Shown here piece after piece: positions 5,863-52,662 of a stretch of DNA of 64,000 nucleotides. Within the stretch, counting starts at the first letter, position 1, and every line of letters begins with the position of its first letter. This DNA comes from a virus, in the IMG/VR virus record IMGVR_UViG_3300043775_000777, positions 51,434 to 115,433 of that record; one strand, 5' to 3'. The position numbers and the translations under genes are program-made. Below the pieces are notes generated by a model. It made no database searches and had not been told where the DNA came from. It worked only from the letters and a program-made list of their open reading frames with translations.

Positions 5863-6129
5863 TTAAATTAATTCTAAATCTGCTTCTTGAAAATGTTCTG
5901 CTTCTATTGCTTCTAAAGTAACATAAGGTGCAAATCTATCCGCACTGTAATACTCATAAGGAAATGATTGTTCTGATAGTTGTACTTCTTTCAATCTATA
6001 ACCATATCTATTTTGTTGTAGACTCATTCTGGCTACTTCAACTACAGTATATACCTTACCTTCTTCTAACCATTCATATGATGATATTCTTTTAGGTTTA
6101 TTACGGCTATCAATGCAAATCACCTGCAT
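5863..6129 (-). CDS. Hypothetical protein, beta-rich
   Basis: The product is 88 aa from the ATG at 6129; a TTG three codons upstream is the alternative. The sequence opens with a basic beta-strand region (MQVICIDSRNKPKRI) and W-x-x-EGKVYTVVEV, a pattern typical of small SH3-like phage proteins. It overlaps the 3' end of clpS by about 20 nt. Function unknown. Confidence 0.6.
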   Translation of the reverse strand: MQVICIDSRNKPKRISSYEWLEEGKVYTVVEVARMSLQQNRYGYRLKEVQLSEQSFPYEYYSADRFAPYVTLEAIEAEHFQEADLELI

Positions 6130-6364
6130 ATTCTTCAATTTCTGATTTAATGTCTAGATCATCAAATTTATTCTTTAATTCAAACATTTCCAAGAAATCT
6201 CCTGATTTAACTGGACATTTTCCTTTATTGTGTGCTATGACCGCACATTGCTCAGCTTGAATAGGCTCATGTTTACAGAACCTAATCAAGCTAGCCATGA
6301 TATACTGATAAGAATTTACATCATCATTGTAAATAACTACTCTGTGTGTTTTGTGCTCTTCCAT
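6110..6364 (-). CDS. clpS: ClpS-like N-degron adaptor
   Basis: The 84-aa product (from ATG 6364) matches the ClpS core. The substrate-pocket motif NDD is at residues 13-15, the conserved pocket histidine is H45 in AHNKGK, and AEQC before it plus GKCPVKSGD after it are characteristic of Bacteroidota ClpS. ClpS binds destabilising N-terminal residues and hands substrates to ClpA/ClpC-ClpP. The usual flexible N-terminal extension is absent with this start: only six residues precede the first strand. A GTG at 6409 would add 15 residues but overlap the helicase gene by 28 nt. Lacking the extension, the protein might bind Clp without delivering substrate. A transferase of the same pathway is encoded at 18835. 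Confidence 0.85.
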   Translation of the reverse strand: MEEHKTHRVVIYNDDVNSYQYIMASLIRFCKHEPIQAEQCAVIAHNKGKCPVKSGDFLEMFELKNKFDDLDIKSEIEEYAGDLH

Positions 6365-6381
6365 ACCATTAAGATAATAAA

Positions 6382-7479
6382 TTAAACTGTCACATTGAAA
6401 TTTTTCCACATAATTTTAGTCTGGTCAAATCCTTCCAATGCATCTTTTACCCATTTCTCATCTACTGTATCCATATAACATAGTATATGGACAATAGCTT
6501 TATCATCTGGGTTTAGCCGGAGTAATCTACCAATTCTCTGTGCAGCCTTTCTCTCATTACCATATGCATGCATAATAATACCTTGTTTTAAATTAGGTAT
6601 GTTTACACCCTCATTCAACTGTAGAACAGTAGAAAGTTTGGTAATCTCTCCATCTTTGAACTTAAGCAAGTTCTCTTCTGATTTTGGATTGTTGCTATGA
6701 TAGCTATGATCACATAACTTATCAGCTTGAGCCTGAGTATTAGCAAATAGAATACACTTACTTTCTATGCTGTCAAATAATAACTTAGCATACTTTTCTT
6801 TAGTAGGATATTCCATAAGAGCTTTCATTCTCATAACTCTAAGCATATGTACACTGCCGGAGCCTACATCTAGTCTTCTAGACCAATAAACATAATTAGA
6901 TTCTTCATCTGTCATATATGTTTTATTCTTCATAGTGACTTGATAGTTCTTTACTTTGCTTAATCTTAGCTCATGCACAACAATCTTATAATCATTCAGT
7001 ATTCCATTTTCTATGGCATCATCTGCCTTAAATGTAAATACTACAGGACAAAACTCTTGCACTAACTTACCTTTTTCTGAATAGTCTCTCTTTGGCGGAG
7101 TACCGGTCAGCCCAAGTATCTTGCCTTTAAATAACTGCAAGAATCCCCGGTGACTGTCTAGTAAACTATGCATCTCATCTAAGTATACAACATCATAATC
7201 ATTAGGATCATGTTTGTTTAAGCTTAGATAAGTAGTGAAGACTACTCTACCTAGAAGATGATGCTTATCAAACTTAACAGCATCATCTTTCCAGGATTGA
7301 AATATAGCTTTTTTAGGTGCAACTACAAGACATTTCATCAGTGGTGTAGTATTTCTATCCATATGAGTCAGGCCAACAAGGGTCTTACCGACCCCTGTGC
7401 CTAAGACTACAGAAGCCCGCTGCTTACCATCAGTAGCAGCTAGAGCTTCTATTTGTATGTCTTGTCTGTCTTTTGTCAT
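6382..7479 (-). CDS. SF2 DNA/RNA helicase (DExH type)
   Basis: The 365-aa product, from the ATG at 7479, shows helicase motifs in order: a Q-like DRQDIQIEAL at 5-14, Walker A GTGVGKT at 27-33, DEMH (motif II) at 101-104, TGTP (motif III) at 125-128, and QRIGRLLR (motif VI) around 314-321. The layout resembles short RadD/XPB-type phage helicases such as T4 UvsW. Likely roles are replication-fork remodelling or recombination. A TTG six codons upstream is a weaker start. Confidence 0.9.
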   Translation of the reverse strand: MTKDRQDIQIEALAATDGKQRASVVLGTGVGKTLVGLTHMDRNTTPLMKCLVVAPKKAIFQSWKDDAVKFDKHHLLGRVVFTTYLSLNKHDPNDYDVVYLDEMHSLLDSHRGFLQLFKGKILGLTGTPPKRDYSEKGKLVQEFCPVVFTFKADDAIENGILNDYKIVVHELRLSKVKNYQVTMKNKTYMTDEESNYVYWSRRLDVGSGSVHMLRVMRMKALMEYPTKEKYAKLLFDSIESKCILFANTQAQADKLCDHSYHSNNPKSEENLLKFKDGEITKLSTVLQLNEGVNIPNLKQGIIMHAYGNERKAAQRIGRLLRLNPDDKAIVHILCYMDTVDEKWVKDALEGFDQTKIMWKNFNVTV

Positions 7480-18394: not shown

Positions 18395-18838
18395 ATGAAA
18401 AAGTATGACATGGGTAAGTATGTGCTCCTGGCCGGGGAAGATGCTACCAAGATATTTGACTACTATGATGTAGATGAGATGCACGGGTTGAACAGAAAAG
18501 ATGCTCAGGCAGAAGAAGTAGATAAGACTGTAGGCAACGGGGTTTATATTTATGGGTGGACTAACTATGACCCAGCAGATAAGAAGCTTACTGCTAAGAA
18601 GCCTTATCTCCCGTTTCTGTTTATTAACCTAGGTACATTTAAGAGGTACTCTATTACAGAGAAAGCTACCGCAGTTATGCATGAGACTATGCATATGGCT
18701 TTGTTACTTAATAACTGGAATGTCAAGGATAAAGAAGAAGAGGTTATTACTTATGCTGAAGATGAAGCTAACAAGATTATTGATAAGCTAGGGTTTGATA
18801 AGAAGGAGCAACCTAAAAAAGGGTTCTTCAAAAAATGA
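18395..18838 (+). CDS. HETMH metallopeptidase-like protein
   Basis: The product is 147 aa from the ATG at 18395. It contains HETMH at residues 96-100, the HExxH zinc site of gluzincin-type peptidases, with downstream glutamates (E114-E116, E122) able to act as third ligand. The sequence before it is beta-rich (PFLFINLGTF), as in short one-domain phage and bacterial peptidases. Its TGA overlaps the ATG of the next gene (ATGA), so it is coupled to the aminoacyl-tRNA-protein transferase homologue. A cleavage that exposes new N-termini would supply substrates for that enzyme; this link is inference. Confidence 0.65.
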   Translation: MKKYDMGKYVLLAGEDATKIFDYYDVDEMHGLNRKDAQAEEVDKTVGNGVYIYGWTNYDPADKKLTAKKPYLPFLFINLGTFKRYSITEKATAVMHETMHMALLLNNWNVKDKEEEVITYAEDEANKIIDKLGFDKKEQPKKGFFKK

Positions 18839-19509
18839 AAGTATACTTTGATCATGTCCAAGGCTTTGGCAAAGTAAGTGACCTGGAGTTAATTATCAAC
18901 TGTGCATATGGAATATTAGAACCTAATGAATCTCCCACAGATGCATTACTACAAGGATGGATACCGTGGGAGGGTAAGTGGTATAATGAGCGCAGTACTA
19001 GAATTAATTTAGCTAAATATAGACCATCTAAGACTACTAAGAAGTTATCCAAAAAGATTATAGTAGAAGCTGGAAATATTGATGTATCATTAGAACAGTA
19101 CACAGAACTATACAACAAATACTGTCAGCATCATGGCTTCAAAAGAGATATCAAGCTAGAGTCATTCAAGGATTGTTCTGTTATAGAGTATCAAACAGAT
19201 GAGCTTGTTGGTATTAGTTTATACAAACAGTTTGATACACAGTTTGTGGCATATCAGTTTATATGGGATTATGCAGATCCTAAACTTTCTCTAGGTACAG
19301 TAGCTCAGATGATGGAGTGTGAAACTGCAAAGCTTCTGAACTGTGAGTATGTTTATCTACTTGGTGGGTATGAGCAGTGCTGTAAGTATAAAGCTAACTA
19401 CCCGGGGTTTGAATTCTGGACAGGTGCAGAGTGGTCTACTGATATAGAACTTTATAACACTCTAGTAGATAGAGATGAAAGAATAAAGATTGAGAACTAT
19501 GATGTATGA
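18835..19509 (+). CDS. Aminoacyl-tRNA-protein transferase (ATE/Bpt family)
   Basis: The 224-aa product resembles arginyl/leucyl-tRNA-protein transferases, which add Arg or Leu to N-terminal acidic residues and so mark proteins for ClpS/ClpAP. It shows GW at 41-42, RINLAKYRPSKTTKKLSKK at 56-74 (family pattern: F-x-P-S-x-S-Q-R-R), then the GNAT-like C-terminal core with SLGT at 152-155, EYVYLLGGYEQC at 171-182 and YKANYP at 185-190 (family: YYYLGYYI-x-x-C-x-x-M-x-Y-K). The zinc-type CxxC near the N-terminus of many ATEs is not seen. It overlaps the metallopeptidase gene. The amino acid it transfers cannot be told from sequence. Confidence 0.8.
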   Translation: MKVYFDHVQGFGKVSDLELIINCAYGILEPNESPTDALLQGWIPWEGKWYNERSTRINLAKYRPSKTTKKLSKKIIVEAGNIDVSLEQYTELYNKYCQHHGFKRDIKLESFKDCSVIEYQTDELVGISLYKQFDTQFVAYQFIWDYADPKLSLGTVAQMMECETAKLLNCEYVYLLGGYEQCCKYKANYPGFEFWTGAEWSTDIELYNTLVDRDERIKIENYDV

Positions 19510-19696
19510 ACCAACTAATAGGATAGAGGTAAACACACCTAAAGGTTCTGGGATCATATGGATCATTACTGACTATGGGCATGAGACGGATACTATCTAT
19601 ACTGTGATTATTACAGCCACCGGAGAGTTCTGGCAGTTTACTCACAAAGACATCCGTGCAAAAAATAATTTAACTTATGGTAGAGATATAAAATAA
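19499..19696 (+). CDS. 65-aa hypothetical protein
   Basis: The ATG at 19499 (or 19502) overlaps the end of the transferase gene by about 10 nt. The protein is beta-rich (IIWIITDYGH; YTVIITATGEFWQF), perhaps a small SH3-like barrel. Third gene of the same operon. Function unknown. Confidence 0.6.
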   Translation: MMYEPTNRIEVNTPKGSGIIWIITDYGHETDTIYTVIITATGEFWQFTHKDIRAKNNLTYGRDIK

Positions 19697-21457: not shown

Positions 21458-22462
21458 ATGGATATTTTAAATTTTATTTCTTGGATAAGAGGACGCAGAC
21501 AAGTAACATCTGTTGATCCGGCTAAATCTCTATTACCAGTTGGTCTTAAGGACGGTAGAAGAGATGATGAATACTTAGCAGGTGCTATATCAGTACAAGA
21601 CTTTACAGCTCAAGTAGCTTCAGTAATTCCATCAGGTGCACAAGGACCGCAGGGTCCACAGGGTGTGCCCGGACCCGTTGGTCCAGCAGGACTAAATTGG
21701 CAGGGTGCATGGTCTGCTTCTGGTGTGTATGTTGTTGATGATGCTGTAGGATATGGTGGAGCATCTTGGTTTTGTATTGCTAACGTAGGACCTTCAGTAA
21801 CTACACCTGACTTAGATCCAACTAACTGGGCACTATTGGCTTCTCAAGGAGCTACAGGACCACAAGGACCTCAAGGTATTCAAGGAATACAAGGACCATC
21901 TGGATCAGGATTACCAGGTACTATAACAAGTCAAACTCAATATTGGACGGGTACACAGTGGGCACCAACTATGGGACTATCAACTACTCCTTCAGCTACT
22001 CCAGGAGCTTCAAGAATTGGTATTGGAGGAAGTACTCCAAATACTAGCAGTTATGCATTAAACGTAATTACAAATGCTAATGGTTTAAGAACTGTTCAAT
22101 CAAATAGTGGACTTGGAATTAGTAATCAAATGTCAAATACAGCTACATCATTTAACTTTGGTGTAAACAATATTAGTGCTAACCCTTTAATTGATAGAGC
22201 TGCTTTCTTTAGTCATAATAGTACATTCCCAATTAAGTTTTCTCATAGTAGTACAGATAGATTAATCATACAAGGTAATGGTCAAGTAGTTATTGGTAAC
22301 GGTTTTGCATTTTCTCTTGATGCTAATCTAGTTGTTAAAACCGGAGATATAGAAACTGAAGAAGCAGGTAAAGGATTAATTCTTACATCATCACCAAGTG
22401 GTTTTAGATATAGAATAACTGTATCAGATCTTGGTGTATTAAGTACAACTGCTGTACCATAA
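21458..22462 (+). CDS. Collagen-like fibre protein
   Basis: The 334-aa product has an N-terminal domain of about 55 aa (MDILNFISWIRG...) shared with the next gene, probably a virion anchor. Two collagen-type Gly-X-Y stretches (about 60-78 and 131-150) flank a W/Y-rich module (79-129) like a carbohydrate-binding domain (W..GVYVVDDAVGYGGASWFC). The C-terminal part is beta-rich with a repeat-like S/N/T content. It is likely a trimeric fibre for host surface binding. Confidence 0.8.
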   Translation: MDILNFISWIRGRRQVTSVDPAKSLLPVGLKDGRRDDEYLAGAISVQDFTAQVASVIPSGAQGPQGPQGVPGPVGPAGLNWQGAWSASGVYVVDDAVGYGGASWFCIANVGPSVTTPDLDPTNWALLASQGATGPQGPQGIQGIQGPSGSGLPGTITSQTQYWTGTQWAPTMGLSTTPSATPGASRIGIGGSTPNTSSYALNVITNANGLRTVQSNSGLGISNQMSNTATSFNFGVNNISANPLIDRAAFFSHNSTFPIKFSHSSTDRLIIQGNGQVVIGNGFAFSLDANLVVKTGDIETEEAGKGLILTSSPSGFRYRITVSDLGVLSTTAVP

Positions 22463-50967: not shown

Positions 50968-52662
50968 ATGAAGCCTTTAAACTTAGATAATAGACCATGT
51001 AGCCCAATATCAAGTAACTGTGTAATATGGCAGGGACCAGATATTCCATGTATCAAGTTATGTACAGGAGATACGGTATCTGATGTTGTATTTAAACTTG
51101 CTACAGAGTTGTGTACAATAATGGATCAGTTGAATGTAAATAATTATGATTTAACTTGTCTTGGTATTACAGCATGTCCTCCGGAAGACTTTCAAGCTTT
51201 AATACAATTACTTATTACTAAGATTTGTGAGCTTAGTGGAATTACAGTTACTGAAAGATCAACTTCAACATGTCCAGATTGTGTAGTATCAGTAGCTCCA
51301 TGTTTTATTGAAAATGGTCAAACTACTATGCAGTTAGTTGACTATGTTCAAATGATTGGAAATAGAATATGTTCTATACTTGCTGAAATACAAAGTATTA
51401 ATGATCAGATTACTGTTATTAATTCTACACTAGTAGACTTACAATTTCAAATAGATAATCTTCCTACATATACACTACCTTCATTTGAAGTAGATTGTAT
51501 ATTAGCAGGAAGTAATTCATTAGATGTAATTGTTCAAACATTGATGAATGACAATGCATTAGGTTACTGTGCTTTATTAGGAGCAACAGGAACACCTGCT
51601 GATATTAATGCAGCAGTATTATCTCAATGTATTACAGACATAGATCAACCATTAGCTGCATTACCTGCTGTAAATACTTTTAGTGCATACTATTCAGGTT
51701 CATGGGTTAATGCTGTATCATTAGGAGCAGCACCATCTGTTTCAAATGCAATTAATAATATTTGGATTGCAATTTGTGATATATATAATTATCTACAAAA
51801 TTTTAACATTAATGTAGAAGATACAAATTCAATTGATTTAACCTATACAGGAGGTGTATTATCAGCTAATATAGTAGATACAGGTTGGGTAGATTTATTA
51901 GGATTTAACTGGTATACTGGAACATCAATAACAAGATACAAACCTCAATGTAGAAGAATAGGTAATGTTGTACACTTTAAAGGTATGTTAATGATACCAT
52001 TGTCATCTAACGGAACAGGTGGAGGTGCAGCAGTTCCTTGGGAATATGGTTCAATTGATTCATATATATCAAACACATCTGTTGCACCATTTCAAGGCTC
52101 AGGCGGAGTAACTGTTGATGCAGGTGGTGCTATATATTTTAATAATAATACTAGTGTTATTCCTAATTCTGTAGTATCTAATACACCAACTAATTATAAT
52201 TTTGATTTTATAGTTCAAAGTAATTATGTAGTAGCTTCTAGAAATATATTATTAGACAGTGGTGATTCTGCTCTACTAACAAGTGTAATGAAAATATGGA
52301 TTACAGCTGATAAAAGGTTAGTTTTACAAATATTAAGAGATAATGAATATTCAGCAGGGGGTCAAGTAGGTAATATTATTGGAACAAGTGTTTTAAATAC
52401 ACTTGTCTCTAGAGTAAATGAAGGTGATAGACTTCCTCAGTTTGCAAGAGTTGGTAGTACAATAGCAGGTAATACCGCAGCTGGTCAACAACCATTGACA
52501 GCTACATATTATGCCGGTGCTCCAGCTCCTGAAAATTATCCATTTGCTTGTGACGCAGGAGATCCTCTTCAACTTGGTGGATTTGGTTGGATATCAATAG
52601 ATGGTATGATGCAATATTTAGAACCATGTAATGCAGATATTAAAGAATATGTTTGTGAATAA
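50968..52662 (+). CDS. Fibre-like virion protein
   Basis: The 564-aa product has an N-terminal domain with NCVIWQGPDIPCIKLCTGDT and repeated helical-Cys segments, a central beta region, and a C-terminal portion of tail-fibre type (WVDLLGFNWYTGTSITRYKP, then FKGMLMIPL). The start domain is also found in the next gene. Likely a head or tail fibre. Confidence 0.6.
   Translation: MKPLNLDNRPCSPISSNCVIWQGPDIPCIKLCTGDTVSDVVFKLATELCTIMDQLNVNNYDLTCLGITACPPEDFQALIQLLITKICELSGITVTERSTSTCPDCVVSVAPCFIENGQTTMQLVDYVQMIGNRICSILAEIQSINDQITVINSTLVDLQFQIDNLPTYTLPSFEVDCILAGSNSLDVIVQTLMNDNALGYCALLGATGTPADINAAVLSQCITDIDQPLAALPAVNTFSAYYSGSWVNAVSLGAAPSVSNAINNIWIAICDIYNYLQNFNINVEDTNSIDLTYTGGVLSANIVDTGWVDLLGFNWYTGTSITRYKPQCRRIGNVVHFKGMLMIPLSSNGTGGGAAVPWEYGSIDSYISNTSVAPFQGSGGVTVDAGGAIYFNNNTSVIPNSVVSNTPTNYNFDFIVQSNYVVASRNILLDSGDSALLTSVMKIWITADKRLVLQILRDNEYSAGGQVGNIIGTSVLNTLVSRVNEGDRLPQFARVGSTIAGNTAAGQQPLTATYYAGAPAPENYPFACDAGDPLQLGGFGWISIDGMMQYLEPCNADIKEYVCE

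Follow-up and report, generated by a model that had tools for sequence, protein, structure and literature searches.

Genes at the locus

The window, i.e., the whole 64,000-nucleotide stretch of viral DNA analyzed here, covers positions 51,434 to 115,433 of the IMG/VR virus record IMGVR_UViG_3300043775_000777. Four of its genes are relevant to N-terminal tagging of proteins.

6110..6409, minus strand: ClpS adaptor, a host-derived N-recognin with its likely start at 6364 (PF02617, 49.5 bits; distribution independent of ATE)
18395..18838, plus strand: HExxH protein of 147 aa, a putative zinc peptidase, upstream neighbor of ATE and not its obligate partner (motif, locus counts)
18835..19509, plus strand: ATE-like aminoacyl-tRNA-protein transferase of 224 aa (PF04377, 33.3 bits; Foldseek match to human ATE1; dN/dS; 524 viral relatives)
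19499..19696, plus strand: N67, a small beta-rich protein of 64-65 aa, starting at the ATG at 19499 or 19502 (pairing counts, dN/dS)

A sequence-only reading of this DNA had already described the first two plus-strand genes, and its coordinates are correct: the open reading frame with the HETMH motif runs from the ATG at 18395 to 18838 and overlaps the ATG of the ATE-like gene at 18835 by 4 nt. It overlooked the third overlapping gene, N67 (19499-19696).

An ATE-family protein encoded by a phage

An intact ORF occupies 18835-19509, with its ATG at 18835. In Pfam, it matches the ATE_C family (PF04377) with an E-value of 8.7e-8 and 33.3 bits, against a curated cutoff of 25. Several full-length NCBIfam arginyltransferase models match it at about 1e-7, covering residues 54 to approximately 200, and its scores of about 32 bits miss their equivalog cutoffs (170-358). 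The ATE_N profile gave no Pfam match at E<=1, and the match to Acetyltransf_6 is weak (E 0.27, below the curated cutoff).

Structure prediction points to the same family. The AlphaFold2 model, built from 20 phage sequences, reached a pLDDT of 79 and a pTM of 0.79. Its top match in a Foldseek search against the PDB is human ATE1 (8tzv; E 2.6e-9, TM 0.64 by query length), followed by the Ate1 proteins of K. lactis and yeast and then by FemX, MprF and L/F-transferase at about 1e-6. A profile of the phage proteins also retrieves yeast ATE1 from the PDB (E 3.8e-5).

Conserved residues agree with the profile and the fold. In an alignment with 12 Bacteroidota ATEs, the phage protein retains G41, R56, L153-G154, G178-Y179 and Y185-K186. 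The columns common to the Bacteroidota proteins (G-W/Y, R, L-G, G-Y and Y-K) are all present in the phage proteins, and the signature pairs Y-K and G-Y do not vary among the latter. The motifs from which the family had first been recognized (GW, KYRPSKT, SLGT, YVYLLGGYE and YKANYP) sit on conserved ATE columns. In yeast ATE1, the N-terminal metal-binding cysteine cluster consists of C20, C23, C94 and C95 (PMC10115844). The phage proteins have no counterpart of it, and CxxC is absent from the N-terminal 110 residues in all 28 that were inspected.

Profile, fold and conserved residues therefore give good support to the membership of the ORF in the aminoacyl-tRNA-protein transferase (ATE) family, as originally proposed. 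Like ATE1, bacterial ATE and Bpt (PF04377), the phage protein has the ATE_C profile, a GNAT-type fold, an N-terminal strand region and the conserved GW, R, LG, GY and YK positions. In contrast to them, it is phage-encoded, measures 224 aa, overlaps a small partner gene and has no detected ATE_N profile; in structural alignments, its identity to ATE1 is about 15%. L/F-transferase (Aat), a structural neighbor of the phage model, carries out the same class of reaction as ATE but forms a separate family. Classical Aat substrates start with Arg or Lys, not with Asp or Glu.

The gene is real and under purifying selection, with pairwise dN/dS values of 0.08-0.20. Relatives are encoded in at least 524 IMG/VR stretches. 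None of the PHROG families matched, and a tblastn search of INPHARED with E-values up to 1, which may omit records very near the window, returned no relative. Close cellular relatives were likewise absent from GTDB contigs. We place the protein in a viral branch of the ATE family that is compact and has its own small, dedicated partner.

N67, the partner of the ATE-like gene

N67 overlaps the stop of the ATE-like gene and has a family length of 64-67 aa. Among the 94 ATE loci examined, it adjoins ATE in 90 of the 92 informative ones and is absent in only 2; in every one of the 90 loci where it was found, it is adjacent to ATE. Counted in reverse, ATE lies next to N67 in 71 of 78 loci. The 7 N67 loci without ATE have other neighbors. 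In such loci, a different HExxH-type gene (HEVLH, phrog_20436) was seen directly upstream of N67 (L415:2522-2998).

The dN/dS values of N67 range from 0.05 to 0.12. The protein has no family match in Pfam or PHROGs, and a profile search of the PDB returned nothing credible. Its predicted model is beta-rich but poor (pLDDT 55.7), too weak for a fold search. The consistent partner of ATE is N67, rather than the HETMH peptidase or ClpS.

An exchangeable slot downstream of the HETMH gene

The sequence-only reading had called the HETMH protein a peptidase, and the HExxH motif is kept in 79 of 79 members of its family. That assignment stands as far as the motif goes; no described peptidase family or structure was matched in Pfam, NCBIfam or the PDB, and the protein is best called a putative zinc peptidase.

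The HETMH gene is only loosely associated with ATE. Counted from HETMH, ATE is nearby in just 11 of 79 loci; counted from ATE, HETMH is missing alongside in 33 of 78 informative loci. The slot adjacent downstream of HETMH is filled by phrog_3704 in 32 of the 79 loci and by ATE in 7, and in most of the remaining loci it is empty, the next conserved gene following. HETMH as an obligate partner of ATE is ruled out by this distribution. In relatives lacking ATE, phrog_3704 starts 3 nt after HETMH, in the same slot; the 4-nt overlap between HETMH and ATE is therefore positional. In one such relative of 115.9 kb, G040, HETMH is followed by a phrog_3704 gene of 210 aa and then by the next conserved gene. 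Copies of phrog_3704 in this phage clade, such as this one (L489:3448-4080), share up to 96% identity.

phrog_3704 is found in none of the 94 ATE loci. Among long records, it occurs in 0 of 17 ATE-positive and 5 of 11 ATE-negative ones (Fisher p 0.005, calculated on related and not independent records). Although it fills the same genomic slot as ATE, phrog_3704 has no homology to ATE or N67 detectable by hhalign. Because the slot alternates between ATE-N67 and phrog_3704, never holds both and is filled by non-homologous genes, ATE-N67 behaves as an optional cassette. By hhalign, there was no support for N67 being a fragment of phrog_3704 or for ATE being homologous to it. The phrog_3704 family is widespread in cyanophages, where its members are labeled PurM, phosphoribosylaminoimidazole synthetase or ferredoxin. 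The "PurM/ferredoxin" label is a misnomer, and the exchange with ATE-N67 may give a handle on this widespread cyanophage gene.

ClpS and its distribution

The ClpS gene seen earlier at 6110 is genuine: the ORF at 6110-6409 on the minus strand matches PF02617 with 49.5 bits. Its likely start is a conserved Met at 6364, where other family members begin. The ORF as called from a GTG is probably over-long, and the start at 6364 removes its overlap with a helicase gene ending at 6382. The closest cellular relatives belong to the Bacteroidota, mostly Flavobacteriales, with 44-53% identity in the best matches. As in described bacterial and phage proteins, the family has the ClpS core, with the equivalents of N34-D35 invariant and H66 mostly kept. 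In the N-degron pocket, the His is retained in the window copy and replaced by Asp in several relatives. The family differs from described ClpS proteins in its Bacteroidota-like lineage, its core of about 84 aa and the equivalent of the Met40 gate, which is aromatic in most members. ClpS has already been described in jumbo phages (PMC7824862) and as gp708 of Atu_ph07 (PMC6102473), where it was interpreted as redirecting the host ClpAP (PMC7824862, PMC6102473). Among the longer ORFs listed for the present phage, Clp protease genes were not recognized by eye.

ClpS and ATE are distributed independently. Among 30 records with ClpS that were chosen by length, a single one, almost identical to the window, encodes ATE. 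When records of 80 kb or more are compared, 10 of the 18 with ATE also encode ClpS, as do 7 of the 11 without ATE, a set assembled by way of portal, HETMH or N67 (Fisher p = 0.72). Many records in both groups are fragments, so that absences are soft on either side. G040 encodes a ClpS 97% identical to that of the window, yet is without ATE. Since it is no commoner in ATE-positive than in ATE-negative records, ClpS is ruled out as an obligate partner, and relatives do not show the linked occurrence of ATE and clpS that the sequence-only reading had asked for.

The host side

The hosts of this family of uncultured viruses are probably Bacteroidota, as judged from the ancestry of ClpS and from the relatives of the terminase and head genes. 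Distant relatives of the terminase occur in phages of Bacteroides and Flavobacterium and in crAss-like phages; the head genes find matches among the PHROG head families. A count of 7 Bacteroidota-type promoters, against an expected 3.2 and attained in 5 of 100 shuffles, was not used as evidence.

In Bacteroidota genomes, ClpS is present in 195 of 198 and L/F-transferase in 180 of 198, while 17 of 296 have a match to ATE_C. A host of this type has an N-degron reader and one writer, and usually does not have a writer for acidic N-termini. As such a host already encodes ClpS, usually without ATE, the phage enzyme could use the host adaptor, and a phage copy would be optional.

Proposed function and its alternatives

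In the reading preferred here, the phage supplies an N-terminal tagging branch that its host lacks, with degradation via ClpS. The chances of this reading are about even. A compact ATE-family transferase would be made together with the overlapping N67. Presumably active, it would use charged host tRNA as the donor of an amino acid, which it would attach to the N-terminus of a protein. Bpt transfers Leu onto Asp or Glu N-termini, and by analogy with this bacterial enzyme, the donated residue would most likely be Leu, placed onto N-terminal Asp or Glu. ClpS, from host or phage, would hand the resulting N-degron over to the Clp protease of the host. Since nearly all Bacteroidota encode ClpS and L/F-transferase and few encode ATE, the phage would open a degradation branch missing in the host, with no need for a ClpS of its own. 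A more specific version is distinctly tentative. It holds that the two-gene module installs the Asp/Glu branch in hosts without it and that host ClpS then destroys chosen host proteins, such as cleaved defense effectors.

Several observations count against a role as N-degron writer. The scores are far below the equivalog cutoffs, the cysteine cluster is missing, and ATE and ClpS do not co-vary. Moreover, GNAT aminoacyl-transferases also serve lipids and the cell wall, and FemX and MprF are structural neighbors of the phage model. In the main rival, an aminoacyl-tRNA-dependent transferase, guided by N67, might modify one particular protein, peptide or lipid of phage or host and alter its function instead of its stability. 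Such a non-degradative role is favored by the closeness of FemX, MprF and L/F-transferase in the fold search, by the missing co-variation with ClpS and by N67, a dedicated small protein next to ATE in 90 of 92 loci, which suggests one special substrate or a regulator. Nevertheless, the phage protein keeps its N-terminal region together with the ATE signature residues, and the fold search places ATE1 structures first. Since nearly every host of this kind encodes ClpS, a missing phage ClpS says little, and the products could still take the ClpS route. This rival is deemed rather unlikely, although it deserves more weight than the others.

A diverged GNAT-superfamily acyltransferase, e.g., one dependent on acetyl-CoA, which kept the ATE fold and lost the use of tRNA, is improbable. 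Many phage GNATs exist, the ATE scores lie below the equivalog cutoffs, and Acetyltransf_6 does match weakly; ATE_C, however, passes its curated cutoff where Acetyltransf_6 does not, the best folds are all ATE1, and the Y-K and G-Y residues are invariant. The least credible explanation is the three-gene toolkit first proposed for this phage, in which the HETMH peptidase, ATE and the phage ClpS form one pathway that cuts, tags and destroys proteins. All three genes are indeed present here, HETMH and ATE overlap by 4 nt, and over half of the long ATE-positive records have ClpS. The distributions of HETMH and of ClpS argue against joint action: HETMH accompanies ATE in a small minority of its loci and is far more often followed directly by phrog_3704, ClpS is as common in ATE-negative relatives, and a phage with a nearly identical ClpS has no ATE at all.

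Novelty and significance

A limited search of the open literature found no description of an ATE-family phage enzyme, or of arginyltransferase in connection with bacteriophages. Should the enzyme be active, phages would write new N-degrons in hosts which keep the reader but are without this writer. An active enzyme would further offer a bacterial system in which to study how viruses control protein N-termini, as well as a compact tool enzyme. If the proposal for the ATE-N67 module is true, it would represent a viral takeover of N-terminal tagging in bacteria.

Other features of the phage

Beside the ATE region, a probable tail-fiber protein with collagen-like GxQGPQG repeats is encoded at 21458-22462 of the window, where relatives vary. 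Elsewhere, the phage was read in three stretches; recognized by eye were a MoxR-like AAA ATPase and, after it, a VWA-type protein with an HELLH motif (L076:9101-11585; G000:C1 43101-45585). One ORF of 4611 aa (L075:1393-15228; G000:C1 18393-32228) is reminiscent of crAss-like giant genes and has, by eye, an AlkB-like stretch near its C-terminus.
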